DNA from: Algibacter sp. L1A34
GTDB lineage: Bacteria > Bacteroidota > Bacteroidia > Flavobacteriales > Flavobacteriaceae
Assembly: GCF_009796805.1 (NCBI RefSeq)
Contig: NZ_CP047029.1
Span: 620,001-684,000 of the forward strand
Direction: 5' to 3'
DNA: 64,000 bases
Of the stretch, positions 30,706 to 57,400 are shown piece by piece. The notes under the pieces were generated by a model. The model made no database searches and was not told where the DNA came from. It saw only the letters and a program-made list of their open reading frames with translations. Position 1 is the stretch's first letter. Every line of letters starts with the position of its first letter. Position numbers and translations under genes: made by a program.

Positions 30706-32430
30706 CTAGGAAGAACGACTATATACTTCTAGAAGGGCATAGAGTTTGTTTGGTTCAAAGGGTTTTCCCATAAACCCATTCATTTTATAAAGTTCTGTTT
30801 TTTCTTTCACATCGGTTTGTGCTAATGCGGTTAAAGCAATAATTGGAATATTAGCTTTTATAGGATCTTCTAATTTTCTAATACGCTTTGTAGCCTGATA
30901 ACCATTTAAGATAGGCATTTGCAAGTCCATTAACACCAAATCGAAATCAAATTGGTCTTTTTTAAATAGCTTGAAAGCCTCTTCACCATTTTCAACAACA
31001 GTAAAATTCACATTCCAATTTAAAAAGAACTTCTTTAAGATAAGAACATTCATTTTATTATCCTCAGCAACTAATACATTTATATTTAATGATTTAAATA
31101 CGGGTTTTAAATTTACTTTATTATTGACTAGAGAACTACTTTTATTATTTATCTTAAAATCTATATTAAAGAAAAATGTTGACCCCTTACCTAATTTACT
31201 ACTAAGCTGTAAATCACTATTTTTAAACCGCAATAATCGTCTACAAATAGAAAGTCCTAATCCTGTGCCACCGTATTTAACAGCAATTTCTGAACTTGCC
31301 TGTACAAAACTTTCAAAAATAGTTACTTGCCTACTTTTAGTTATCCCTATACCAGTATCTATAACCTTAAATCCAAGCGTAATTATATCATTAATAACAC
31401 CTTGATTTTTAACACTAAGAGTGATACTTCCTTTTTTGGTAAACTTAAACGAGTTGCTTAATAAATTTTGGATTATTTGAGTAAGCACAAGTTTATCACC
31501 TATAATATTTTCGGGTATTTCATTTTCCTTAATCAACTCAAAACGTATTCCTTTTTTAATAGCTTGTAAAGAAAATTGATCAACTATATGATCTAAAAAA
31601 GAAATTAAACTGAATTCTTTTTCAACAACATCAACCTTACCCGATTTAATTTTATTAAAATCTAATAAATCATTTATTAAACCAAGCAGATGTTCACTAG
31701 AATATTTTAAAGCCTTAAGCGTATCGACCTGCTCTGGCAAATAATCTTCCATTAACAAAATATTAGACAAGCCTGTAACGGCATTTAATGGTGTTCTAAT
31801 CTCGTGAGACATGGTTGATAGAAACTCATCTTTAGAAATACTCGCTTTATGAAGCTCTATTTCTGTTTCTTTTAAATTAGTAATATCGGTTATAGTGCCT
31901 ATAAACCCAGATGCTTTTTTTTCTGCGTTCTTAAAAAGCTTCGCTCTTAATTCAAACCACATGGTTTTATTATCCCGTAGTAATTTAAATATAAAAACGG
32001 TATTCTTTTTATTGAAAAAATTATAATGCTTTTTGTTTTCTTCTACATTTTTTTTCGGAATAAACTCTTTATAATTTCGTCCTAATGTCTCTTTTAAAGA
32101 ATATCCTATATATTTCTCCCAAGCTGTATTTAAGTAAGTAAAGTTTCCTTCAAGATCAGTTTCAAATATTATTCCACCAATATGGTCTACAACATGTTCT
32201 AATTTAGATTTCGTGTTATCACGCTCCTTAGTTAATTCTTCATTTAGTGCAAAAAGCTCTGTAGAACTAAGTTCCAAAACATTTTCTAGGTGATAAATAT
32301 CTTTATCAAAACTATTATATGCGGCATTTACGGTTTGTATAAAACTAACCATCTCGGGATTATCTATTGTGTTAAAACCTGCTTTTGTAAGCTGTCGCTT
32401 TAACAATCTATGGTAATCTTTATTCAACAT
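30706..32430 (-). CDS. PAS-domain hybrid histidine kinase/response regulator
   Basis: The 574-residue cytoplasmic protein contains an N-terminal coiled coil, a PAS domain (about 78-195; IIFETDLEGNFTYLNTAWEKY), DHp with phospho-acceptor His in TMSHEIRTPLNAV, a HATPase domain with GGTGLGLSICRRLL, and a C-terminal receiver (NVLVAEDNKMN; phospho-Asp in LVLMDLQMP). There is no membrane segment and no output domain, so it must signal to another protein. Its ATG overlaps the stop region of the FIST gene by seven bases, strongly implying that the FIST protein is its sensory partner. Confidence 0.9.
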   Translation of the reverse strand: MLNKDYHRLLKRQLTKAGFNTIDNPEMVSFIQTVNAAYNSFDKDIYHLENVLELSSTELFALNEELTKERDNTKSKLEHVVDHIGGIIFETDLEGNFTYLNTAWEKYIGYSLKETLGRNYKEFIPKKNVEENKKHYNFFNKKNTVFIFKLLRDNKTMWFELRAKLFKNAEKKASGFIGTITDITNLKETEIELHKASISKDEFLSTMSHEIRTPLNAVTGLSNILLMEDYLPEQVDTLKALKYSSEHLLGLINDLLDFNKIKSGKVDVVEKEFSLISFLDHIVDQFSLQAIKKGIRFELIKENEIPENIIGDKLVLTQIIQNLLSNSFKFTKKGSITLSVKNQGVINDIITLGFKVIDTGIGITKSRQVTIFESFVQASSEIAVKYGGTGLGLSICRRLLRFKNSDLQLSSKLGKGSTFFFNIDFKINNKSSSLVNNKVNLKPVFKSLNINVLVAEDNKMNVLILKKFFLNWNVNFTVVENGEEAFKLFKKDQFDFDLVLMDLQMPILNGYQATKRIRKLEDPIKANIPIIALTALAQTDVKEKTELYKMNGFMGKPFEPNKLYALLEVYSRSS

Positions 32431-33548
32431 TCCCAAAGCGTTGTTATAGTCATAGTTTGGTGGTGTAGTTCACATAAAGACTCGCTTAATGGAGCAATTT
32501 CTCCGTAAGAATAAAACCCTGTTATTTTTGGATTATCGCCTACTATATGGCGAACCACATCAATTTCTTCCTCCACCAATTGCTTTAAGACCAAACGGCG
32601 GCCTATACAACTAATTAATATCACTAATTCTAAAGTCTCTTTTACACCTTGACTAACAGAAATGGCCGATTCCTCTGCCCCAGTAATCAACTTATCAATA
32701 TTACCTTTCATTAAGCGTAAATAGGCTCCTTCTGGAATATTAGCACCAAAAACTAAACTTTGATCATCTTCGCTAATACCAGAAATACCTCGAACTACAG
32801 CAATGGCACTTCCTCCTTGCCTCATACTTACAGGAAACAAAAGACCTGAACTTGGTAGTTTTTTGGCATCCTCACCTAATAAATGCTTATATATTTTTAA
32901 TGCGGGCTTTCCATCCAATTCGTATAAAACATTTTTATCAGCTTTTGTTACCAACCGCTCAATTCCAAAACCATCCCATCCGCCTTTGGAACTATAATTA
33001 ACTTTAAGACTATCACCATAAAAGCCTAAAGCTAAAACTGTTTTTTCTAACATCTCATTATTTCTAATTACAAAAGTATTCCCAAAATCCTCTCCGTCTG
33101 CAGCTAAACCTCCTGTAATACTAATATTTGGTAAATTAGATTTTAACCCCATTACCAAATCGGCACCATTAATATTTAATCCATCGCTTAAAACCATAAC
33201 ATGTTTTAAACCATCTTGATTAAGCATAATACCAATTTTTTCGCCTGCTTTTTGGCTATATTCCATTTGGTCTACTTTTACTGAAACCAATTTTAAGCAT
33301 GTTTTGTTAAATTGAATAGCTGTTAGAGATATTGATTTATCTTTTACGGTAACATCCGAAATTTCTCCAGCCGTAGAGCAACCTATTATCGTGCTTTTTG
33401 GGTAATCTCTATTTAATTGCGATAAAACTTGTTGTTTTAAGGTGAAGTCTGGTGACACAAAAAGTAATATTAAATTTGGATCAACAGTTATTGAAGCCAA
33501 ACCATGAGACCAATTGTTTTCGTTTAACGAAATTTGATTAACTTTCAT
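32424..33548 (-). CDS. FIST domain sensory protein
   Basis: This 374-residue cytoplasmic protein has a FIST-N domain (LFVSPDFTLKQQVLSQLN...TIIGCSTAGEISD) and a FIST-C domain (the C-terminal VRHIVGDNPKITGFYSYGEIAP is diagnostic). FIST domains are thought to bind small ligands such as amino acids and to work with signal-transduction proteins. It has no enzymatic motif. It is the first gene of a two-gene operon with the soluble hybrid histidine kinase, whose translation starts inside its last codons. Confidence 0.88.
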   Translation of the reverse strand: MKVNQISLNENNWSHGLASITVDPNLILLFVSPDFTLKQQVLSQLNRDYPKSTIIGCSTAGEISDVTVKDKSISLTAIQFNKTCLKLVSVKVDQMEYSQKAGEKIGIMLNQDGLKHVMVLSDGLNINGADLVMGLKSNLPNISITGGLAADGEDFGNTFVIRNNEMLEKTVLALGFYGDSLKVNYSSKGGWDGFGIERLVTKADKNVLYELDGKPALKIYKHLLGEDAKKLPSSGLLFPVSMRQGGSAIAVVRGISGISEDDQSLVFGANIPEGAYLRLMKGNIDKLITGAEESAISVSQGVKETLELVILISCIGRRLVLKQLVEEEIDVVRHIVGDNPKITGFYSYGEIAPLSESLCELHHQTMTITTLWEC

Positions 33549-33811
33549 GTATAGATTTTTAGTAATAGGCTCTTAAAAAAAGAAACCCTTCCCCTTGTAT
33601 GTAAGAAAAGATAGCCATTAAATTAAAGCGAAATTTTGTAATAAAAAACTTTTTGCAAACAATTCTTTCGTTAAGGCCTTAAAAACAGCTATACATCGAT
33701 AAAGTAAAACGAAATCTTCTTTGGTTTTTATTAGTAATAAATGTACTATGCGAGAAACTCCAGTTTAAACAAATTTGTAATTCTAAAAGCATTAAAAAAT
33801 TAGTCGCTATG

Positions 33812-33856
33812 TAAAAACAGTGCCATTTTATAATTATAAAATGGCACTGTTTTAAA
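33812..33856 (-). terminator. Terminator after mpl; rest of the 33549-33886 spacer has no gene
   Basis: AAAACAGTGCCATTTTATAATTATAAAATGGCACTGTTTT is a perfect long palindrome with A and T runs, about 30 bases beyond the mpl stop on the minus strand. In the remainder of this 340-base spacer I see no gene or repeat. Confidence 0.85.
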
Positions 33857-33886
33857 CGTATATAAATTTATATTTAAACTACAAAG

Positions 33887-35242
33887 CTACTCAATCAAAG
33901 CTTTTACAGCATCAAAATCTAAACCCCCATAATTCCCCGAACTCATTAAAAGCAATGCTTTATTCTCAAAATTCTGATCAAAAAGAAATGTTTTGAAATC
34001 ATCTGGATTAGTATAAATAATTAAATCTTTTCGCTCAAAAGCCGCAGCTATTTGTTCTTGAGTTACTGCCGCAAGTTTTTTAATTTCTACGGCATGTGGA
34101 GAATAGAACACCACAGCAACATCTGCAGCATCGAGAGCGCCTTTATATTCCTTTAAAAACTCAGCATTTAAACTGCTATATGTATGTAGTTCTAAACAAG
34201 CAACCACAGTTCGGTTCGCATATTGTTCTTTTACCGCATTTGTAGTAGCTTCTACTTTACTCGGCGAATGCGCGAAGTCTTTAAATGCTACGCTATTTTT
34301 GCTTTCTGCTATTTTTTCTAAACGTTTGCTAGCTCCTTTGAAAGTAGCAATGGCTTCGTAAAAATCATCTTCATCAATACCCATGTGTTGGCAAATCCAT
34401 TTTGCACCTGCCAAATTATTAAGATTGTGTTTACCAAAAACTTCTATTGGTAATGGCCCTTCGGGTGTTTCTAAAAAGGTTTCACCATTTTCCACAGTAT
34501 ATTCTGGAGTATGGTAAGCTATTTTTCTAATCGTATTTTCGCTGGCTTCTACTACCCGCTTTACTTCAAGATCTTCTTCATTGTAATTTACACTTCCACC
34601 ATTTACAATAGAGTCTACAAATATGCTAAATTGCTCTACATAATTTTCATAGGTAGGAAACACGTTAATATGATCCCAAGCAATACCACTCAATAAAGCA
34701 ATATTAGGTTTATATAAATGAAATTTTGGACGTCTATCTATTGGCGAACTTAAATACTCATCTCCTTCAAGAACAATAAAATCATTGTCTTCCGTAAGTT
34801 TCACCATGACGTCAAAACCTTCTAATTGTGCACCAACCATATAATCAACATCACGATCATGATAATGCATTACATGTAAAATCATGGAAGTAATGGTCGT
34901 TTTACCATGGCTTCCACCTATAACTACACGGGTTTTATTTTTAGATTGTTCGTATAAAAACTCTGGATAACTATATATTTTTAAGCCTAATTCTTGTGCT
35001 TTTAGTAACTCTGGATTATCGGCTTTCGCGTGCATTCCTAAAACAACAGCATCTAGATTTTCCGATATCTTTTCAGTAAACCAACCAAACATTTCTGGCA
35101 ACAAACCTTTTGCTTCCAATCTAGATTTAGAAGGTTCAAAAATTGTATCGTCGCTCCCTGTTACTTGATATCCTTTATTATGAAGCGCTAAGGCTAAATT
35201 GTGCATGGCCGAGCCGCCAATGGCTATAAAATGTACGTTCAT
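33887..35242 (-). CDS. mpl: UDP-N-acetylmuramate:tripeptide ligase (Mpl)
   Basis: Mpl joins recycled murein tripeptide (L-Ala-gamma-D-Glu-meso-DAP) to UDP-MurNAc, linking peptidoglycan recycling to synthesis. The 451-residue protein has the Mur-ligase N-terminal domain (HFIAIGGSAMHNLALALHNKGY), ATP loop GGSHGKTTITS, the central EGDEYLSSPID (typical of Mpl rather than MurC), and the C-terminal DFAHSPSKV. Intact motifs and normal length support function. MurC, the close relative, is excluded mainly by the EGDEYxSxxxDxRPKF block. Confidence 0.92.
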   Translation of the reverse strand: MNVHFIAIGGSAMHNLALALHNKGYQVTGSDDTIFEPSKSRLEAKGLLPEMFGWFTEKISENLDAVVLGMHAKADNPELLKAQELGLKIYSYPEFLYEQSKNKTRVVIGGSHGKTTITSMILHVMHYHDRDVDYMVGAQLEGFDVMVKLTEDNDFIVLEGDEYLSSPIDRRPKFHLYKPNIALLSGIAWDHINVFPTYENYVEQFSIFVDSIVNGGSVNYNEEDLEVKRVVEASENTIRKIAYHTPEYTVENGETFLETPEGPLPIEVFGKHNLNNLAGAKWICQHMGIDEDDFYEAIATFKGASKRLEKIAESKNSVAFKDFAHSPSKVEATTNAVKEQYANRTVVACLELHTYSSLNAEFLKEYKGALDAADVAVVFYSPHAVEIKKLAAVTQEQIAAAFERKDLIIYTNPDDFKTFLFDQNFENKALLLMSSGNYGGLDFDAVKALIE

Positions 35243-35705
35243 CTGTTGATTTTTGAATGTTTCAAAGATACTTTTTTGTACTGAATTGCTGAAGTGTTGA
35301 TTAAGAAAATTGTTTGATTATTTAAATGTAACTATAATAAAAGAATACACTGCTGAGCCTAACAGTTTATTAAACAGAATAATTAACTTGAAGGTTGCTC
35401 TTTGTTAATTATATTTTCTTCTGAAAATTAGTAATTAATTCGATTTTAGATGAACTTGATTCGAGACTATATTAATATCATCTTTAACGTATTCCTCCTT
35501 TTTGATGATTTAAAAAGGAAGCTTTATTATTTTTATATAACCCTATCTCTTTCACATATTTCCATCTTAAATAAGCTTAAAACAAAACTAGAATTTTAAT
35601 AAATCATTAATATAGATTAAAATATAATTATATTACCCTTATGGTGTGAATATGGCTATTAACTATATTCGATTGTTGTAAAACATTTGAAAACACCAAG
35701 ATTAA
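35243..35705. other. Gene-free spacer at the left edge of the accessory region
   Basis: This 460-base AT-rich stretch after the mpl start contains no frame with coding character and no recognisable RNA. From here to about 45.7 kb gene density falls and broken genes accumulate. Confidence 0.5.
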
Positions 35706-35837
35706 ATGAATTAATTTCTGATATTAATATTGATTTTGGGTTTAAATATTGGTTGTTCAGTAAACAAAACTGAACTACCTAAATCTTCAAAAACATCTAT
35801 AAAATATAGAGTTTTGGAAAAAAACAAGTCCGAATAA
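35706..35837 (+). pseudogene. Remnant of a small lipoprotein gene
   Basis: ATG AAT is followed by TAA at 35712, then an open stretch encoding a hydrophobic run LILILILGLNIGC with a lipobox-like Cys, then SVNKTELPKSSKTS and a stop after 43 codons in total. It looks like the signal peptide and first mature residues of a lipoprotein whose third codon has become a stop and whose body is missing. The call depends on composition alone. Confidence 0.4.
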
Positions 35838-35939
35838 CATAAAATATAAAATTTCATTATAAGTGGATTTTAAATAAAATTTTTAATCGATTCAATAATC
35901 ACTTTTCGAAAATAACGTATTCTATTAATTGATAATTTT

Positions 35940-36788
35940 TTATTTATCTTTTTTTAATGCTTGATTTATTAAGTTTATAACTCTTTGCTTATCAGAAAAA
36001 ACCATTCCCCTAGTATTCTTTGTCATAGATTCATAACGGTAAACATCGTCTATATTATAACTTTTGGATTGACTTAAATTGGTATATGTCCCCGAAATAT
36101 ATAAATACATTTCTTTAACATTCTCAACAGTTTTACTTAAAGGCATACTAGCTGTTGAAGTGTTAGATAATTTTAAGGATTTATAAAATAGATATGGCTT
36201 TTCCAGAATATAATTGTCATTTTCAAATTGAATTAAAACGTAACTTTTAATATTGAAATTTGTCGAACCAGCATCATCACACCTAAAATCTACCCTAAAA
36301 TAAGGATCATTTTCATACATAATTATATGAATCCCTTTACCTCCCATATCTAAATGAAGAATAGGGTCTTTTTCAACGGGAAGAATATTTGTTGTAGTTA
36401 CTATATTCTCTATACGTTTATTTAATGTGTCAATTCTTAACCCTTGATTTGCAAATGCTTCAGATACATCTTTAAACAATTTTTTTCTAGAATCATCAAC
36501 CCCTTTTTTAATTCCATCTGTTATCAAAGAATCTCTTTGAAATTGTTCTTCATGAAGTAATAACTCTCCATTTCTGTTTAAATTAGAATTATTGTAATCT
36601 TGAACAATTAATATCAATGACATAGATAATGACACTACAAAAACTAATTTCCCTCTATAGGTAATTCTTTTTAAAAATCCTTTATACTTATTGTTTGTTA
36701 ATCCTCCTTTAGAAGTTAAGAATGTCAAATATAGAGTTGACAAAACTATTAATACAATAAAAACAACGTTTGGAATAATTGGCTTCAT
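35940..36788 (-). CDS. Membrane protein of unknown function
   Basis: This 282-residue protein has two N-terminal membrane helices (VVFIVLIVLSTLYLTFL and KLVFVVSLSMSLILIV), then a charged helical linker (about 75-125) and a beta-rich C-terminal domain of about 150 residues (PILHLDMGGKGIHIIMYENDPYFRV). No family is recognised; the layout suggests an extracytoplasmic or cytoplasmic sensor-like domain anchored in the membrane. It is isolated, in an AT-rich accessory region with no conserved neighbours. Confidence 0.6.
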   Translation of the reverse strand: MKPIIPNVVFIVLIVLSTLYLTFLTSKGGLTNNKYKGFLKRITYRGKLVFVVSLSMSLILIVQDYNNSNLNRNGELLLHEEQFQRDSLITDGIKKGVDDSRKKLFKDVSEAFANQGLRIDTLNKRIENIVTTTNILPVEKDPILHLDMGGKGIHIIMYENDPYFRVDFRCDDAGSTNFNIKSYVLIQFENDNYILEKPYLFYKSLKLSNTSTASMPLSKTVENVKEMYLYISGTYTNLSQSKSYNIDDVYRYESMTKNTRGMVFSDKQRVINLINQALKKDK

Positions 36789-37032
36789 GAAATCTATTGA
36801 GAAACAAATTTAAAATATTTTTCTTACAAAGAACAAACATTAAGTTTTCAACTCAATCAATTAAAGTGCTTTTCCTTCTTCTGTATATTTTTTTCATACA
36901 GCAAAAACTTCATCATTCCTCCCAAAAACACATAGTTGAAAGGTATTTAATTTCAAACACCAGTGACTATTAAGCTTTAAAAAGTAAGGTGTTTTATACT
37001 TATATTTTTCTCCCTTCATACTAATTATACTT

Positions 37033-37530
37033 ATGCAAAAGATAAGAGTTTATGAAAGAGATAATCAAAAAAACAAATCTGACTTTTTAATAATTGAGAT
37101 ATCAAGTGTATTATGTTATTTAGTCTTTGAAAGGGTCTATCTGCTTTTGACTTCAATTCTTACTTCTATATACACACTCTTGAAAATAGAAAATGAATTT
37201 ATAATATTAAGCATTAATATCATATTTGGATTAAATTCAGTTTTAATCTTTGTATCAGTATATAATCAAATATTAAAAAACAAAAACCCTTCTAAAAAGA
37301 TAATTTATATTCTATTAACTGTGGGTATTTTACTAATATTTTTAACTATGGCAAACACGTCTTTAGTTACACAATACTTTTATAACAATACTGACTTAGA
37401 TTATTCATATTATAAACTTCTATCACGATTCAGTTGGTCAAAGTCACTAAATTATTCAGTTAGGTTTTTAGGACTTACTTATTTTATATGGAAAATATAT
37501 TCTGAAAGAAAAACTGTGGCTAATAACTAA
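37033..37530 (+). CDS. Small multi-pass membrane protein of unknown function
   Basis: The 165-residue protein has about four hydrophobic helices (including VYLLLTSILTSIYTLL, IIFGLNSVLIFVSVY and IIYILLTVGILLIFLT) and no recognisable motif. Codon use is very AT-rich. It lies in the accessory region as an orphan, followed by a coding-like fragment that may be debris of another gene. Function cannot be inferred. Confidence 0.5.
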   Translation: MQKIRVYERDNQKNKSDFLIIEISSVLCYLVFERVYLLLTSILTSIYTLLKIENEFIILSINIIFGLNSVLIFVSVYNQILKNKNPSKKIIYILLTVGILLIFLTMANTSLVTQYFYNNTDLDYSYYKLLSRFSWSKSLNYSVRFLGLTYFIWKIYSERKTVANN

Positions 37531-37565
37531 GTATTCGGCTCGCCGATAGGCCAGAGCTGAATATT

Positions 37566-37697
37566 GTGTTGACGAAGTCGGCAGAATATGTCTCTTATGG
37601 GGAAAACAATGTATTTAGAGAAGGTTGGAAAGATTTAACTTTCACGATTAGGGAAAAGGAAAAAAATAGACAACGGATTTTGGAGTTTGACTTGTAA
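37566..37697 (+). pseudogene. C-terminal gene fragment, unidentified
   Basis: An open stretch ending at TAA 37695-37697 encodes SAEYVSYGENNVFREGWKDL and then TFTIREKEKNRQRILEFDL, which has the composition of a real protein C-terminus but no start codon with a plausible leader. It directly follows the small membrane protein gene. It is interpreted as leftover 3' sequence of a lost gene. Confidence 0.35.
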
Positions 37698-37758
37698 AGT
37701 AAATTGTCGGACAATAATAATTTATTAATTCCCTCTTCCCTAAATAAAGTAATATTTT

Positions 37759-38298
37759 TTAGTCAAATCTATAAACTAGACCAAACTGGAATCCATTAAA
37801 TTCAGCGAATAAATCAGACGATGAACTAAAATCATCCTTTAGAGAATTTGACAATGCTAAATTGTACCTTGCTTCGATGGAAAGCCTATCTGTAATATCA
37901 TAGGATACACCTAAAGAAACACCAAGATTATAAGAATGAAAATTTTCATTAGTGTTTAATAAAAATCCCAAATTTGGACCAGCCAATACCTTAAACTTTT
38001 TTCCGATTCTATACTTAGCTAAAATAGGAATTTGAAGTTGGTCAAAATCATTTTTAATTTTCACATAAGTAACTTCAGGCTGAATATAAAATCTTTCAGA
38101 AATGGAAAATTCTACGAATGCACCTATGTAGAAACCATCATTATAATTTTTGTCAGTTTTTAATCCATCACCTTCAAATGATGTATTAGTTTCTCTTAAA
38201 GATTTAAAATATCCTGATTTAACTCCAAATTCGGTTTGAGCACTCAAACTTGATATTGCTAAAACTAAAATAAGACTTGTAAGTAATAATTTTTTCAT
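37759..38298 (-). CDS. Outer-membrane beta-barrel (porin-like) protein
   Basis: The 179-residue protein has a signal peptide (ending SLSAQ) followed by FGVKSGYFKSLRET and eight alternating amphipathic strands ending in FNGFQFGLVYRF, whose terminal aromatic residue is the usual BamA-recognised signal. It belongs to the broad outer-membrane beta-barrel domain family (OMP_b-brl) found widely in Bacteroidota. No specific function can be given. It is monocistronic. Confidence 0.8.
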   Translation of the reverse strand: MKKLLLTSLILVLAISSLSAQTEFGVKSGYFKSLRETNTSFEGDGLKTDKNYNDGFYIGAFVEFSISERFYIQPEVTYVKIKNDFDQLQIPILAKYRIGKKFKVLAGPNLGFLLNTNENFHSYNLGVSLGVSYDITDRLSIEARYNLALSNSLKDDFSSSSDLFAEFNGFQFGLVYRFD

Positions 38299-38527
38299 GG
38301 TAAGATTGTTTTTATGTTATAACCCAAAACTAGTAGTTAAATAAGAAGGCTATCTTAATTAAACCTTAATTAACTTTTATTTTCATCTTAATTAACTTCT
38401 ATTTAACAGATCTTCAGGTTTTTATAGAAACCGAAGTTTTAGCCTTATTGAAAACAACCAATGACTTTTATGCAACCCGAGTTGAACATAGTTATGAATA
38501 GAATAAAAAACGACACCACAATGCCAT

Positions 38528-38628
38528 CTATAATTAATTGCTTTGGTCGTTGTTTATTTGAAAAATTCCTTCGAGATTTTCTTGTATTCGTTTCTGTTTA
38601 CTAAATTAGTTGCTCAAACACGCAACTA
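38528..38628 (+). repeat. Cassette-edge repeat, variant B copy 1
   Basis: CTATAATTAATTGCTTTGG...TTGAAAAATTCCTTCGAGATTTTCTTGTATTCGTTTCTGTTTACTAAATTAGTTGC aligns over about 85 bases with 39824-39908. It ends with the inverted repeat TTAGTTGC-tcaaacac-GCAACTAA. It abuts the 5' end of a broken gene. Confidence 0.7.
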
Positions 38629-39036
38629 ACCAAAGAAAATTTTGCAATTACGAAAGTGGTTGAAAATCGGGAAACTACACTTAAAAAGGATGAAATTAAA
38701 AAACATTTCGAAGGATATTAGAACCATAAAGATATAGTTGAAACAACTATTAAAGAGGAAAATATTTGTACTTATTCTCAAATTAATGACAATGGTAAAT
38801 ATTATGCAACTCAATATTTTAATAGAAGATATAGTGAGACCTTGAACAAAGAAAACAAGAAAAACTATAGTGTGTTTGAAAGAGATTCTTATCTATTTGA
38901 CTTCGAATTGAATAACGTTGAGGATATAGAATATGAATTCAGGAAAATGAAACAAACTGTGTTAAATCGAGTGGAATACGATGAAACCTTTTTGAATTCA
39001 TTTTACAAACGAGAAATAAGTAAGAAATCGGAATAA
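38611..39036 (+). pseudogene. Broken orphan gene, 5' end lost into a repeat
   Basis: One frame runs from CSNTQLTKENFAITK at 38611 through TAG at 38719-38721 to TAA at 39036. After the stop the same frame continues for over 100 codons (NHKDIVETTIKEEN...FYKREISKKSE). The open 3' part from 38842 could be read as a 64-residue ORF, but it is more simply the C-terminus of the larger gene. The N-terminus is absent: the frame closes at 38602 inside the repeat. The first residues (SCSNT) look like a mature lipoprotein start. No family is recognised. Confidence 0.6.
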
Positions 39037-39043
39037 AAAACTA

Positions 39044-39085
39044 TTGGCAACAACCTTAGCAATAATTCCACATGCAAAAAAAACG
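39044..39085 (+). repeat. Short cassette-edge repeat copy
   Basis: TTGGCAACAACCTTAGCAATAATTCCACATGCAAAAAAAA follows the broken gene's stop. The GGCAAC start and the ATGCAAAAAAA end match the left and right ends of the longer copies; the middle is missing. Confidence 0.45.
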
Positions 39086-39214
39086 GTAATTCCTTAAGCT
39101 TACCAGTAAAAGCCTATCGGAATTTTGATAAAATTATTAGATTTACAAAAAAGCTAATTAACTGAATGTCAAAAATGAAATTAACGTTAAACATGATTAA
39201 ATTCTGAACAAAAA

Positions 39215-39808
39215 ATGACCCCAAAACAGATTGAAAGAATAAAAAATAAAATCGGAAAAATAAAACGTGAACTTGCAGCAGACAAAAAGCATTGGGGCGG
39301 ATTTTATCATGACGGTAGAGGACTTAGATATCTGCCACCAGAATTATATTTAAAATTAAACGATTATTCAGGAGCTTTGAGATACTTTAACTGGTTTGAT
39401 AAAAATTTTCCTGAAGACTCTGGATTTCCAATATTTCTTTTTGAATGGACAATTACACTTTTCAAAAAGAAGAAAATCCACCTAGCTGAAAAAAAAGCCT
39501 TGGAAACATTTTATTCTAATAATTATTTAATTGATATATTTTTAGGAAATGACATACTAGATTTTAGTAAATCTGAAAATTCAAATTGGGAATGCTCAAG
39601 CCTAGTAGAAAATTTAAAATATTCGAAAAGCCAAGAAGAACTCAATGATTTCGCTAAATGGATCGAAAACTTTACCAAAACGGAAACATTTTATAGTTTC
39701 GCTAATACATTAATTAAAATTCAATCAAAACTAATAACAGAACCTGTAGGTAAAAAGAGATCAGAACTTATAAATAAAAAATATAAATTACTCGAAAATT
39801 TAAAATAA
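39215..39808 (+). CDS. TPR-like cassette protein of unknown function
   Basis: The 197-residue soluble protein has an N-terminal basic helix (QIERIKNKIGKIKRELAADK), a conserved-looking HWGGFYHDGRGLRYLPPELY block and then helices of tetratricopeptide character (YSGALRYFNWFDKNFPEDSG, FPIFLFEWTITLFKKKKIH). Similar proteins occur as isolated cassettes in flavobacteria, to my recollection, but no function is known. It is intact and flanked on both sides by the cassette-edge repeats. Confidence 0.65.
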   Translation: MTPKQIERIKNKIGKIKRELAADKKHWGGFYHDGRGLRYLPPELYLKLNDYSGALRYFNWFDKNFPEDSGFPIFLFEWTITLFKKKKIHLAEKKALETFYSNNYLIDIFLGNDILDFSKSENSNWECSSLVENLKYSKSQEELNDFAKWIENFTKTETFYSFANTLIKIQSKLITEPVGKKRSELINKKYKLLENLK

Positions 39809-39811
39809 AAA

Positions 39812-39912
39812 CTACTGCCAACGTGTATAATTAATTGCTATGGCAAGTACTTATTTGGAAAATTCCTTCAGGATTTTTTCTTGTGTTCGTTTCTGTTTAC
39901 TAAATCAGTTGC
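39812..39912 (+). repeat. Cassette-edge repeat, variant B copy 2
   Basis: CTACTGCCAACGTGTATAATTAATTGCTATGG...TTTGGAAAATTCCTTCAGGATTTTTTCTTGTGTTCGTTTCTGTTTACTAAATCAGTTGC is alignable with 38528-38612. It begins six bases after the TPR-like gene's stop and runs into the 5' end of the next broken gene. Confidence 0.7.
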
Positions 39913-40661
39913 TAAAAAGAAAGAGATTTATTATCTAGTACAATTTGATTGTAAAACAGATGTAGATGACCTTCATACTGTAGCTGCCTTAGTAACTTTG
40001 ATGTCTGATCCCGAATTTTCAAAAACACAATACCATGCAGTTGCCGGTACATATGACACTCAGGAAGGTTTATATGTTCCGTCTAATGATTTATTTCAAC
40101 TCTCCTTTGGAAATAACTGGACAGACGCAATTGAAAATTTTAAAGACGCAATTGAAAAAGTTAAGGTTATTGCCTTAAAAACGCTTATAAAGCAAGGGAA
40201 TATTTGGATTGCAGAAGCAGGTCAATCTGATTTTACGGCTAGACTAATAAAAGCTATTCAATTAGACTTACCTGAAATAAATGTTTCAAAACGTATTCAT
40301 GTAATACAACATAGCGATTGGAATGAAAACCCCACTTCTACGGAGAGTCTTCAATTTGTAAAAGAAAATTCTAACGATCAGAAAATTTCCGATGGAAATA
40401 CTGTTGGAAATGGAACTCCTGGATTTCGTGACCCTGAATATACCTATTGAAATGATAAAATCATAAATCAAAAGTTGATTGAAGTATGGCAGCTTGCAAC
40501 AGATTTATCAAATAAATACAATGGAAAAGACGGACGCTATAATAACAAGGCTATTTCGGTTGGAGGATTAGACTTCTCATACTTTTCTGAAGTTTGTTGG
40601 ATTTTGGGAATACAAAACATTTAAAGATACAGAACAGTTCTTTAATATTTATTCTCATTAA
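39894..40661 (+). pseudogene. Nucleoside-hydrolase-like gene, 5' truncated and broken
   Basis: The frame encodes YYLVQFDCKTDVDDLHTVAA, whose DCKTDVDD resembles the calcium-binding Asp cluster of nucleoside hydrolase-fold proteins (DUF1593-like). IAEAGQSDFTARLIKAI and VGNGTPGFRDPEYTY follow. TGA at 40448-40450 interrupts it; translation resumes in frame (NDKIINQKLIEVWQLATDLS, GGLDFSYFSEVCWILGIQ). A one-base shift near 40620 then separates the last residues (KDTEQFFNIYSH, stop at 40661). No signal peptide remains: the 5' end merges with the repeat. Three lesions make this a pseudogene. Confidence 0.7.
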
Positions 40662-40737: not shown

Positions 40738-40882
40738 AACTGTTACCAATAATGTATAAAAATAATAGCCGTAAATTCAAGAGTTTTATCCCGCTTCAGC
40801 TTTCTTGATAACTTAAAAGTAAAGCGCTACGCAGTCAGTTACTATTTCTATACACAAACTTTGTGTGCAATGCAAAAAAAAT
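40738..40882 (+). repeat. Cassette-edge repeat, variant A copy 1
   Basis: ACTGTTACCAATAATGTATAAAAATAATAGCCG...GCTACGCAGTCAGTTAC and the terminal hairpin ACACAAActTTGTGT followed by AATGCAAAAAAA. This 145-bp element lies between the broken hydrolase gene and the first FMN riboswitch. The right end recurs at 43770-43794. Confidence 0.65.
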
Positions 40883-40932: not shown

Positions 40933-40940
40933 AGTTGAAT

Positions 40941-41053
40941 TTCTTCGGGGCAGAGTGCAATTCTCTACCGGCGGTAAAAGTCCGCGACTCCTTGAAAAAG
41001 GACTGATTTGGTGAAACTCCAAAACCGACAGTTAAAGTCTGGATGAGAGAAGA
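40941..41053 (+). ncRNA. FMN riboswitch (RFN element) controlling ribB
   Basis: The conserved RFN landmarks appear in order: TTCTTCGGGGCAG, ATTCTCTACCGGCGGT, AGTCCGCGACTCC, GATTTGGTGAAACTCCAAAACCGACAGT, TAAAGTCTGGATGAGAGAAGA. FMN binding represses the downstream riboflavin gene. About 30-50 bases downstream, ATGCAATTGAT and ATCAGTTGTGTAT can pair (with G-U pairs) and may form the expression platform. The ribB start lies at 41159. Confidence 0.95.
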
Positions 41054-41158
41054 AAAAGTCTATCACTTAACTATGCAATTGATATAAATCAGTTGTGTAT
41101 TATATTGCTGTACACTTTGCTCAGAAGAATTAATACTAATAATTTAAAAGTAGCAAAG

Positions 41159-41827
41159 ATGAATAGTTTAAAAACATTTGGAAAAAACAGCGTAGAAAGA
41201 GTTAATAATGCTGTTGAAAAATTACAACAAGGTTTCGGAATATTACTTGTAGATGATGAAAATAGAGAAAATGAAGGTGATATTATTTTTTCTGCCGAAA
41301 AAATGACAGAAAAAGATATGGCTTTAATGATCCGAGAATGTAGTGGAATAGTATGTCTCTGTTTAACTGAAGAAAAAAGTAAAAGTCTTCAATTAAAACC
41401 AATGGTTACTAATAATACAAGTAAAAACCAAACAGCATTTACCATATCAATTGAAGCAAAAAAAGGAGTAACTACAGGTGTATCGGCAAAGGATAGATTA
41501 CAAACAATAAAAACAGCTATTTCAGAAAAAGCTAAACCAGAAGATTTATCACATCCAGGTCACGTATTTCCTCTATTAGCGCAAAGTGATGGCGTTTTTA
41601 AAAGACGAGGTCATACAGAAGGAAGCATAGATTTAATGAAAATATCAGGTTTAAGAGATGTTGCTGTTTTGTGTGAATTAACAAATATTGATGGCACAAT
41701 GTCACGACTTCCTGAAATTTGTGAATTTGCAAACAAGCATAATATGACGGTTGTTACTATTGAAGATATTTTTCAGTATAGAATGATAACTGAGAAAAAA
41801 ATGGAAAAGCTTGAGGTAATAAATTAG
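41159..41827 (+). CDS. ribB: 3,4-dihydroxy-2-butanone 4-phosphate synthase
   Basis: RibB converts ribulose 5-phosphate to DHBP and formate, supplying the four-carbon unit of riboflavin. The 222-residue single-domain protein has the acidic active-site loop [51 protein letters not shown] and the [11 protein letters not shown] motif. It lacks the GTP cyclohydrolase II domain often fused to it, so it is a stand-alone RibB. I use the ATG at 41159; an in-frame codon at 41093 would start in the leader. An FMN riboswitch precedes it. Confidence 0.93.
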
Positions 41828-41931: not shown

Positions 41932-42678
41932 ATGAAATACATTTTATTACTCGGACTATTCTTATTACAATTCACCGGTTATTCACAATCACTTGATCAA
42001 AAATCGAGTTCTAACAAAGATAATGACAAGTTGCTATTAACAATCTTTCTTAAACATGATCAAAGCATGAATTTAAATGAGATTGAAAAAATAAGAACGG
42101 ATCAAGGGTTTTATGTAAATCTCCCTCCAGAAGGAGTTTCTGTAGTTAATTGGTTTGTAGTTATGGGACTTGGCCAGGTGGTTGTATTAGAACTTCCTGC
42201 TTCAAAATTATCAGCTGTGAATTTGGCAATTGAGAGAACCGCATGGAAGGCTTTTACAACAGAAATTTATCCAACGTACAATTTGTATCCTATCATAGAA
42301 AATAAGTTGAAAAATAAGTCAAAGGTGACACTTAATTCAAAACCTATTTTTGAAAAAGAAAAAGATGATAAGTTGTTATTAACGGTCTTTCTTAAACATG
42401 ATCAGAGTATGAATTTAAATGAGATTGAAAAAATAAGAACCAATCAAAGGTTTTATGAAAATCTCCCTCCAGAAGGAGTTTCTGTAGTTAATTGGTTTGT
42501 GGTTATGGGACTTGGCCAAGTGGTTGTATTAGAGCTTCCTGCTTCAAAATTATCAGCTGTAAATTTAGCTATTGAGAGAACCGCATGGAAAGCTTTTACA
42601 ACAGATATTTATCCAACGTACAACTTATATCCTATCATAGAAAATAAATTAAAGAATAAGTCAAAGGTAGAATACTAG
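41932..42678 (+). CDS. Secreted protein with two near-identical internal repeats
   Basis: The 248-residue protein has a signal peptide (ending TGYSQ) and two copies of a roughly 95-residue unit (LLLTIFLKHDQSMNLNEIEK ... AFTTEIYPTYNLYPIIENKL), offset by exactly 114 codons (342 bases). Only a few residues differ between them (DQGFYV/NQRFYE, TEIY/TDIY). The unit's strand-helix pattern could be a ferredoxin-like dimeric alpha/beta barrel, which two fused copies would form intramolecularly, but this is inference. It follows ribB in the accessory region. Confidence 0.75.
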   Translation: MKYILLLGLFLLQFTGYSQSLDQKSSSNKDNDKLLLTIFLKHDQSMNLNEIEKIRTDQGFYVNLPPEGVSVVNWFVVMGLGQVVVLELPASKLSAVNLAIERTAWKAFTTEIYPTYNLYPIIENKLKNKSKVTLNSKPIFEKEKDDKLLLTVFLKHDQSMNLNEIEKIRTNQRFYENLPPEGVSVVNWFVVMGLGQVVVLELPASKLSAVNLAIERTAWKAFTTDIYPTYNLYPIIENKLKNKSKVEY

Positions 42679-43856: not shown

Positions 43857-43864
43857 ATTAAATT

Positions 43865-43977
43865 TTCTTCGGGGCAGGGTGTAATTCCTTACCGGCGGTT
43901 AGAGTCCGCGACTCCTTGAAAAAGGATTGATTTGGCGAAACGCCAAAACCGACAGTTAAAGTCTGGATGTGAGAAGA
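43865..43977 (+). ncRNA. Second FMN riboswitch (RFN element)
   Basis: TTCTTCGGGGCAGGG, ATTCCTTACCGGCGGT, AGTCCGCGACTCC, GATTTGGCGAAACGCCAAAACCGACAGT and TAAAGTCTGGATGTGAGAAGA give a complete aptamer. Changes relative to copy 1 preserve pairing (TGGTGAAACTCCA becomes TGGCGAAACGCCA, an improved stem). A TATACAA/TTGTATA hairpin follows. The ribB copy it precedes is dead. Confidence 0.93.
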
Positions 43978-44072
43978 AAAAAACTTAACTATACAATTAA
44001 AATAAACTCACTTGTATAATTGATGTATGCTTTGCTCCGAAGATTTAATATTAATAAACTAAAGGAGTAATG

Positions 44073-44741
44073 ATGAAAAGTTTAAATTAATTTGGAAAGA
44101 ACAGTAAAGACAGAGTTGAAAAAGCTGTTTAAAAGTTGCAACAGGGTTTTGGAATTCTACTAGTAGATGATGAACATCGAGAAAATGAAGGAGATATTAT
44201 TTTTCTGCCGAGAAAATGACAGAAAAAGATATGGCTTTGATGATTAGAGAATGTAGTGGCATAGTGTGTCTTTGTTTGACAGAGGAAAAATGTAAGAATC
44301 TTTGTTTAAATCAAATGGTAAGGGAGAATACGAGTAAAAACCAAACGGCATTTACAATATCAATTGAAGCAAAAAATGATGTAACTACGGGAGTTTCTGC
44401 GCAAGATAGATTAACGACAATTAAAGCTGCTATTTCTCATAATGCAACACCTGAAGACTTGTCGCATCTAGGTCACGCATTTCCCTTGTTAGCTAGAAAA
44501 AATGGAGTATTTGAAAGAAGAGTACTTATAGAAGGAAGTATTGACTTAATGAAAATTTCAGGATTGGGAGAATCTTCAGTTTTATATGAATTGACTAATT
44601 ATAGATGGCACAATTTCGAAATTACCCGAGGTTTGTAGCTTCGCAGAAAAGCACAATATGACCGTAGTTTCTATTGAAGACATTTTCCAATATCGTAAAA
44701 TGAAAGAAAACATGAAAGAAGTATTAGAAATGGTTAATTAA
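44073..44741 (+). pseudogene. Decayed second copy of ribB
   Basis: Aligned to the intact ribB at 41159, this copy has stops at codon 6 (MKSLN then TAA) and in the KAV-stop-KLQQ region, a one-T deletion in the TTTTTT run of GDIIF near 44203, and a frame change after YELTN near 44600. The open middle (44216-44638) keeps [13 protein letters not shown] and TTGVSAQDRL, but the catalytic RRGHTEGS has become RRVLIEGS. The end MKEVLEMVN with TAA at 44741 is recognisable. It is clearly non-functional, while its riboswitch is preserved. Confidence 0.9.
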
Positions 44742-44757
44742 AAAGTACATACACACA

Positions 44758-45376
44758 ATCGGGTGGATGGCTCCGTCATCAAATGACGGAGTGAACCCTT
44801 CATTTCACCGCACGTGCGGGTCTCGTATACGGCGGTTCGTAAATCATCACACCAAAGCTCTTTTCTCCCTTGGCACTATTTTCTACTTTAAACATAAGCT
44901 ACCACTAGTGCTCCTATGCAAATTTTGAAGAGAATTTCGTTCAGTCCTTCCCTACTTGTGAGTCCATCGGAGGTATTAACTCTACTCGTTTCCTATAGGC
45001 ACTATAACCTCTGTTGACTTCTCCAAATAACCAACTCGTAGTTTTGGAAATCCTCCCAGGTAATGACATCTTCTTTCTCTAAATCACTGCCGTATCTACA
45101 TACTTACACTTTTGATAGTCTTAGGGCGTTACAATGATGTGCTTGCTTACCCGAGTAAATATGCCTCTCTATACAATTTATGTTCGTCAGTACCGAGTTT
45201 TGTAGTGGTATTTGCTCATTAATCAATCACAAATAACCTTCAGATAAAACCTCACGGTTTTCACCCTTGCAACTTACTAATGCTTCAAGACGTTACTCCT
45301 GCACATAAGGGACTTGCACCCTATAGATTAATTATTTACCTTTCCGCAAATAAAAGCATGCCCATGCTGGGCACAC
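44758..45376 (-). mobile_element. ORF-less group II intron
   Basis: Read on the minus strand, the element begins GTGTGCCCAGCATGGGCATG at 45376 (GUGYG-type 5' end) and continues with domain I-like sequence (GGTGCAAGTCCC; AAGTTGCAAGGGTG). It contains AACCGCCGTATACGAGACCC and GCACGTGCGGTG at about 44838-44806 as domain V, then a domain VI hairpin (GGGTTCACTCCGTCA/TGACGGAGCCATCCACCC, 44800-44761), ending ...CCGAT near 44758. At about 620 bases there is no reverse transcriptase/maturase frame, so splicing would need help in trans. Exact ends are uncertain by a few bases. Confidence 0.75.
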
Positions 45377-45702
45377 ACAATACCTATATCTAATAAGGGG
45401 TTCTGTACTTTTAATTCCCTTACTAGCCATAGCCTAAACATAAGCAATTTAAAAAAACCAGAAAAAGAGAATTAAACTTAAAAAATCCTCATAATGGGTT
45501 GATATGCGATTTGGACAGGAATAGACCCCTTGAAATTGTATTCATAGGAACTCTTATATTTGAAGAACCCACCATATTTTTGCGTTTGTTCCTTATTTCA
45601 ACTTTAATAGCTTCTATTGTAGGATTAAAAATAGTTTCCAACTGAAGTTAAATGAGTTAAAATCTCTTCAAAAAAAACATAACAGACAAACAATTTTCAA
45701 TA

Positions 45703-57222: not shown

Positions 57223-57352
57223 GGCGTTACCACAAAATTAAAAAAAGGTTTAATTTTGCCGTCAGGCTTTCCGCTGTATCTTTTTATTTTTACTTAAAAT
57301 TGCTTTGCATTTCAATTAAAAACAAAAAGGATGCCGCATCAATCCTTAACGC
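57223..57352 (+). repeat. Dispersed intergenic element, copy 4
   Basis: GGCGTTACC...CAGGCTTTCCGCTGTATCTTTTT and AAAAAGGATGCCGCATCAATCCTTAACGC are the two ends, most like copy 1. The inner arms CTTTTTATTTTTA and TTAAAAACAAAAAG pair. It lies between fbaA and accD. Confidence 0.8.
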
Positions 57353-57400
57353 AGTTAACGGCTTAATATTAAAGCTTTAAACTTTAAAACACACATTACT

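Follow-up and report, generated by a model that had tools for sequence, protein, structure and literature searches.

The minus strand at positions 44758-45376 of a 64,000-nt stretch of the Algibacter sp. L1A34 genome, called the window hereafter, carries an element that resembles a group II intron devoid of any protein-coding frame. This locus raises the questions of what the element is, whether it still functions and which maturase could have served it. The first-pass annotation of the window had called such introns uncommon in bacterial chromosomes. A 2015 review indeed describes ORF-less introns as rare in bacteria (PMC4424553), but a 2022 survey counted 888 introns without an IEP among 13,041 (PMC8919778). 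For one intron, C.te.I1 of C. tetani, the host genome is known to have no related IEP (PMC4424553).

Results

Identity and surroundings of the intron

The first-pass annotation had proposed a full-length ORF-less group II intron, and its ends proved to be exact. The 5' end at 45376 on the minus strand reads GTGTGCCC, the interval starts with GTGTGCCCAGC and finishes with CCACCCGAT, and the 3' terminus is CCCGAT with its last base at 44758. The GTGTG..GAT ends obey the group II rule of 5' GUGYG and 3' AY, and the splice junction is TTGT|T. A core of domains I to IV was recognised by RF02001 with 104.2 bits against a gathering score of 32. A match to RF01998 at 44944-45042 (23.8 bits) stayed below its gathering score of 35. 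The ORF list contained no frame of at least 60 aa inside 44758-45376. The RNA fold of the intron had a z value of -2.19 against 20 shuffles. The Rfam domain V search of the window gave no match; domains I-IV and the relatives are the basis on which the element was identified. It is more than a chance resemblance, since full-length copies exist in two plasmid records and in whole genomes. The element at 44758-45376 is an ORF-less intron of group IIC in a state of decay, and the attC-like site that contains it is degenerate (Table 1).

The intron is antisense to its neighbouring genes and directly follows a broken ribB copy (43861-44742), exactly as annotated before. The genes formerly called accessory are the remains of a cassette array. 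That annotation had recognised neither the group IIC type of the intron, which is the type known from attC sites of integrons, nor the decay of this copy. The broken ribB copy and the intact one are direct repeats of 72-82%. Two FMN riboswitches (window 40937-41827 and 43861-44742) are each placed ahead of a ribB-like gene, of which the first is intact and the second broken. The intact riboswitch-ribB unit comes after the attC-like site at 40738-40869, and riboswitch and ribB may therefore travel as a cassette. A 248-aa ORF at window 42023-42664 is an internal duplication of 300-nt repeats, 92% identical and 342 nt apart.

Table 1. Features of the intron locus in window coordinates. R1 is the covariance model of attC-like hairpins described in the text.
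Feature	Position	Strand	Evidence
ORF-less group IIC-type intron, decayed copy, 619 nt	44758..45376	-	Both ends, RF02001, full-length relatives
5' exon: imperfect hairpin (arms 45417-45432, 45384-45399), then ..TTGT; degenerate attC-like site	45377..45432	-	R1
Core, domains I to IV	45065..45261	-	Rfam RF02001 group-II-D1D4-3, 104.2 bits, E 3.1e-20
Candidate EBS1 loop ACTACAAAA (ACAA opposite IBS1 TTGT); closing stem 1/4 pairs	45198..45206	-	Putative EBS1 assignment
ORF-free domain IV, type common to ORF-less relatives	44837..44938	-	Comparison with relatives
Domain V, degenerate, 7/9 basal pairs (hand count)	44804..44836	-	No RF00029 match at E <= 1
Domain VI, basal pairs damaged; candidate branch A at 44764 (by eye)	44758..44803	-	
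3' exon, first base T (IBS3 position)	44757..44757	-	T in 38/39 relatives
FMN riboswitch and broken ribB copy adjoining intron	43861..44742	+	RF00050 112.5 bits; 140-aa partial frame
attC-like site, bottom strand, R' side worn	38510..38650	-	R1 86.5 bits
attC-like site, truncated	39841..39920	-	R1 40.2 bits, model positions 34-111
attC-like site, degenerate	40738..40869	-	R1 26.6 bits

Decay of the window copy

The domain V-like hairpin of the first-pass annotation is present but degenerate. The covariance search proposed there for domain V found no match to RF00029, which covers domains V and VI, at E <= 1. In the same scan two ORF-less relatives scored 39.3 and 38.9 bits, just under the gathering score of 40. 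The window copy thus lacks the intact domain V helix of group II introns, and it is a group II intron by descent only. The closing stem of the candidate EBS1 keeps one of four pairs, against three or four in 36 of 38 relatives; of the remaining two, one has 2 pairs and in the other the loop was not found. The window copy keeps 39 of the 47 family pairs in domains IV-VI, the second lowest of 19 copies, and the lowest score (L074, 31/47) goes with a 3' end placed too early by the script. The bases of domains V and VI are damaged, and domain I contains 23-24 additional nt.

This damage has to be read with care for domain V, where the window is no worse than some relatives. The script counted nine of nine basal pairs in 24 of the 38 relatives, 4-8 pairs in 13 and no 5' strand in one. 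The scores of 4-8 are due in part to inserts or a wrongly picked strand; in the window and in at least one further copy the script took the wrong strand, and the value for the window was counted by hand. That domain V damage is not peculiar to the window counts against our reading of the locus. The window copy has lost pairs that it would need and is therefore probably dead, neither splicing nor moving now. The opposite proposal is an intron still at work, self-splicing without maturase like C.te.I1 of C. tetani and perhaps affecting neighbouring genes. In its favour, the window copy retains both ends and most of the core domains, and the C. tetani intron is a precedent without a related IEP in its genome (PMC4424553), but the single pair in the EBS1 stem, the lost base of domain V, the damaged base of domain VI and the empty RF00029 search make a working intron very improbable.

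A helper maturase acting in trans had been expected in the same genome. The only RVT_1 match there is a retron-type reverse transcriptase (RT), and the RT at C1:843768 was ruled out as helper for that reason. The search with the IEP at E <= 1e-10 yielded just two C-terminal fragments of 79 and 65 residues. The first (IEP residues 333-411, C1:4023544-4023780) starts at an R1 site at 4023771-4023914, and the second covers IEP residues 352-416 at C1:4033955-4034149. In both cases domains V and VI come after the IEP fragment, so that both are 5'-truncated relics of ORF-bearing introns. A GIIM match in this genome, considered spurious before, was shown by the same search to be a real 5'-truncated relic. 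Neither RVT_1 nor the IEP search at E <= 1e-10 detected an intact ORF-bearing helper intron in the genome, and the full-length maturase-bearing relative to be sought there is represented by the two relics only. Their presence implies that an ORF-bearing sister was formerly active in this genome. Across 38 genomes, five had any IEP match at 1e-10. A Zobellia draft genome carrying full-length ORF-less copies had no IEP match at E <= 1e-10.

The retron-type RT itself occupies L009:995-2703 (G000:C1 about 843262-844970) and matched the NCBIfam Ec67 and St85 families below cut-off. A Flavo-1 RNA match was observed just downstream on the same strand, and another Flavo-1 at window 57256-57367.

Relatives and the ORF-bearing sister

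The blastn search found full-length ORF-less copies on a Tenacibaculum finnmarkense plasmid (82.7% identity, two copies in the record) and on a plasmid of Chryseobacterium sp. SNU WT5 (75.5% identity). Ten of 60 genomes, its own counted among both, match the window intron at E <= 0.001. The Chryseobacterium plasmid also carries an ORF-bearing sister intron of 1855 nt. The sister encodes an IEP of 438 aa, which TIGR04416 identifies as a group II maturase (374 bits) and whose best PDB match is the GsI-IIC RT (E 3.4e-98). Therefore, the lineage was placed in group IIC, and the sister's best structure match points to the class C IEP that belongs to this group.

Named genomes were searched with a degenerate 25-mer derived from the ORF-less copies, which returned 52 loci with 56 motif copies. 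Going by genus name, we take nearly all loci to belong to Flavobacteriaceae or Weeksellaceae; a few MAGs are included, one named Salinivirgaceae. Both ends were located by script in 36 of the 56 motif copies, 20 of them shorter than 1000 nt and 16 at 1,841-1,861 nt. An ORF of at least 300 aa was found in 15 of these 36. Some of the 52 loci overlap or contain identical copies, and 38 distinct copies were compared.

Insertion point and attC-like hairpins

Group IIC-attC introns are described to insert at a TTGT/T consensus in the bottom strand of attC, at R'' and opposite to the cassettes (PMC7923331). Among 50 copies of the present family, the 5' exon ends with TTGT in 26, GTGT in 16, ATGT in 5 and another sequence in 3; T is the first base of the 3' exon in 38 of 39. 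The relatives lie antisense to the cassettes in a bottom-strand hairpin, with (N)TGT/T at its R'' end as the insertion point.

Fifteen unoccupied hairpins from between cassette genes were aligned (A2). The bottom strand folded better than the top in all 17 sites compared, two of them window sites outside A2, by margins of 0.1-5.5 kcal/mol. In the 24-pair structure of A2, 86.9% of cells are paired, against 31-48% when the strands are slid, and nine pairs are changed on both sides. One of the five measures in this structure test, the further pair types, was not above shuffles (348 of 500 reach it). The R box forms the weaker helix with 70% of cells paired, compared with 92.6% for the L box. The covariance model R1 was built on these 15 hairpins, none of which adjoins an intron copy found. 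Of the 51 located 5' ends, 33 have an R1 site that lies on the same strand as the intron and extends to 7-11 nt beyond the splice point. At the remaining 18 of 51, from the 52 loci scanned, no R1 site was found, which weakens the case. The hairpin that group IIC introns have in the 5' exon instead of IBS2 therefore appears in 33 of 51 relatives and weakly in the window.

In the window, the R1 site of the intron scored 16.2 bits (E 0.021 over 11.5 kb) and the next match 10 bits. Its R' was not recognisable. This weak site, too, speaks against our reading. The 5' exon folds at -7.0 kcal/mol on the intron strand versus -3.8 on the other strand. Taken at the level of sequence, the family has the arrangement of IIC-attC introns, TTGT/T in a bottom-strand attC and antisense to the cassettes, with a degenerate attC in the window. 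Two same-genus genomes (G002 and G003) share the sulfatase downstream but not the array, and no R1 match was obtained in the 14 kb taken there.

Cassette arrays and recombinases

The genome contains at least 105 R1 matches at E <= 0.1, nine of them training sites, mostly in arrays of one orientation. The scan scored 150 of 4356 candidates, so weaker sites may have been missed. Three long arrays have 19, 29 and 31 R1 matches, which lie on one strand in 18/19, 29/29 and 31/31; the single exception overlaps a site of the opposite orientation. Two arrays start 0.4-0.8 kb past a tyrosine recombinase (383 or 379 aa), and G001, G002 and G004, genomes of the same genus, likewise have a recombinase followed by sites. 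At the head of the third array no recombinase was seen, and the nearest TIGR02249 match is about 27 kb off. At E <= 1e-10, R1 matched 34 of 60 genomes, consisting of its own, 30 of 36 others of its family and 3 of 23 from other families. The other family members comprised 21 genomes with five or more matches and 9 with one to four, and the three from other families had one match each.

Segments shared within and between own and same-genus arrays were collected at >= 93% identity and >= 300 nt. There were 37 pairs with 112 distinct ends, of which 52 lay within 20 nt of a predicted R' cut; in 1000 random draws the mean was 3.1 and the highest count 10. Because repeated cassettes share them, these ends are not independent of one another. 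A 515-bp cassette is present in four near-identical copies, which have ...GCGTTACG and then TT in common and diverge directly after. This corresponds to the G/TT point of integrons. The attC-like sites have the R and L boxes, the bottom-strand bias and the predicted G/TT cut of integron sites. Segments of 1.2-1.4 kb (L131 1-1215 and 3719-5074, with copies in L132-L138) are repeated at 97-99% between own arrays and at 67-99% in same-genus arrays; they are perhaps insertion sequences or widely shared cassettes. On the Tenacibaculum plasmid (L031:3236-3376, 3440-4360), a tyrosine recombinase gene is located beside an attC-like site, together with two ORF-less introns.

The recombinases speak against calling the arrays plain integrons. 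Four of them scored 149-207 bits on the IntI model TIGR02249, whose cut-off is 265, and no match above cut-off was found in 12 genomes. Two of the four passed NCBIfam NF040815 ("site-specific tyrosine recombinase/integron integrase"). The L058 protein has about 20 residues opposite 61 in IntI4 (180-240), so the IntI-specific insertion, or patch, is absent. The label integron-like is used because the recombinases fall below the IntI cut-off and the L058 protein is without this insertion. The insertion has been called essential for integron function, though it is not fully conserved (PMC8138268). This deviation, together with the third array's head, would suit the hairpins being MITE or REP-like repeats rather than recombination sites, with arrays that are not integron-like. 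That proposal is unlikely, given the single orientation in each array, the recombinases heading two own arrays and the near-identical cassettes that part after G/TT with ends close to the predicted cuts.

Domain IV and chimeras of the ORF-less family

The ORF-less copies of different genera have a similar domain IV, in two sequence types tellable by eye, and no ORF remnant was seen in it. Eighteen of 22 distinct tails were aligned over domains IV-VI, after one near-duplicate of L031 and three copies with inserts in domain V (L033 and both of L037) had been dropped. RNAalifold predicted 47 pairs across domains IV, V and VI, 28 of them changed on both sides. Pairing was kept in 97.1% of cells compared with 36-49% when slid, and the covariation score was 0.450 compared with 0.06-0.10; the structure was predicted from the same alignment, which favours the count. 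In the inner helices 2 to 4 of domain IV, 15 of 21 pairs are changed on both sides. Therefore, the ORF-free form has been kept under RNA constraint.

These data bear on whether the window intron arose as a one-off, from a local ORF-bearing intron that simply lost its ORF by deletion. The two relics in the same genome would fit such an origin, as would the view of ORF-less introns as derivatives that lost their IEP (PMC4424553). Against this, the ORF-less copies of Tenacibaculum, Zobellia, Maribacter and Polaribacter have a domain IV that matches the one in the window and whose hairpins covary, and this sequence was not seen in 14 ORF-bearing copies over the 75 nt that follow domain III and the 80 nt that precede domain V. 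A single local deletion is accordingly a quite unlikely origin.

Three same-genome pairs of ORF-less and ORF-bearing copies were compared. Over nt 1-410 (domains I-III), the ORF-less intron of Chryseobacterium and the ORF-bearing one on its plasmid are 99.8% identical. Identity is 84% over the last 82 nt of the ORF-less copy, whose domain IV gave no alignment to the ORF-bearing one at E <= 1e-3. In Polaribacter filamentus, nt 1-415 are 95.9% identical and a 43-nt 3' piece 83.7%. The Maribacter 4G9 pair has the reverse pattern (5' 78.5%, 3' 96.7%), which is at odds with our reading in one of the three pairs. Exchange between ORF-less and resident introns best explains the chimeras, and template switching or DNA recombination may be the cause. 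The ORF-less copies look like a non-autonomous, chimera-forming family, not like single deletions. The ribozyme-core tree intermixes ORF-less and ORF-bearing copies with low deep support, which is another point against us; the support is too weak for the origins of the ORF-less form to be counted from it.

Discussion

Taken together, the window very probably contains a decayed non-autonomous group IIC intron without ORF, inserted in the attC-like bottom strand of an integron-like array. The class of the sister IEP, the near-constant insertion point, the antisense position, the conserved ORF-free domain IV and the chimeras support this at the sequence level. The ORF-less intron RNA would be spliced and reverse-transcribed in trans by the IEP of the ORF-bearing sister, and we infer both splicing and mobility in trans on these grounds. 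Reverse splicing would target (N)TGT/T in the folded bottom strand, at its R'' end. Entry into the bottom strand would leave the intron antisense to the cassettes.

A broader reading is put forward tentatively, at a little short of an even chance. It joins a widespread class of chromosomal integrons in Flavobacteriaceae, with a patchless XerA-like recombinase, to SINE-like ORF-less IIC introns that prey on the arrays, the window copy being a fossil. The ORF-less introns would keep their own domain IV and acquire domains I-III from the resident ORF-bearing intron, and would in this way still be recognised by its maturase. The window copy appears to be an ordinary relic, and the family and the arrays are the new part.

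The ORF-less family appears to occupy the recombination sites of cassette arrays in marine Flavobacteriaceae, and tracing it reveals large integron-like arrays where surveys had almost none. Should the arrays prove to be integrons, a bacterial family that is large and well sequenced would have a cassette-capture system hardly reported by a standard survey, and its recombinase would be an exception to the rule that requires the IntI patch. ORF-less introns, should they be mobilised in trans, would be the bacterial equivalent of SINEs, parasites of a retroelement that remain compatible with it through the exchange of modules.

Comparison with known systems

The IntegronFinder 2.0 survey lists one complete integron in Bacteroidetes proper, that of Salinibacter ruber (PMC9024848). 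The arrays described here share with chromosomal integrons and CALINs (PMC9024848) the cassettes of one orientation, the palindromic sites with bottom-strand bias, the G/TT point and, in two arrays, a recombinase at the head. They differ in a recombinase which is without the IntI patch and co-directional with the cassettes. Among the matches listed from the open-licence PMC literature, there was no description of such arrays in Flavobacteriaceae. The sites have been published in part, as the attC sites of the Polaribacter phage P12002L, of which attC2 is recombined by IntI1 (PMC9892861). R1 gave 8 matches at E <= 0.05 in this phage of a Flavobacteriaceae host, and these may include the published sites. 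In P12002L (L141), several R1 matches lie at 30900-39716 among DNA methyltransferase and HNH genes. The presence of these sites suggests that phages of Flavobacteriaceae trade cassettes with host arrays.

Like the ORF-less bacterial introns reviewed before (PMC4424553), the present family consists of ribozymes without IEP; a related IEP is mostly assumed to serve such introns in trans. It differs from them in its spread over several genera, in its RNA-constrained domain IV, in the chimeras with resident ORF-bearing introns and in at least the Zobellia draft genome, where full-length copies occur with no IEP match at the threshold given above. The closest likeness is to the group IIC-attC introns (PMC7923331), with which the family shares TTGT/T at R'' of the attC bottom strand, the antisense position and a class C-type IEP in the sister. 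It is set apart from them by ORF-less copies with their own conserved domain IV, by Flavobacteriaceae hosts and by a site sequence type of its own.
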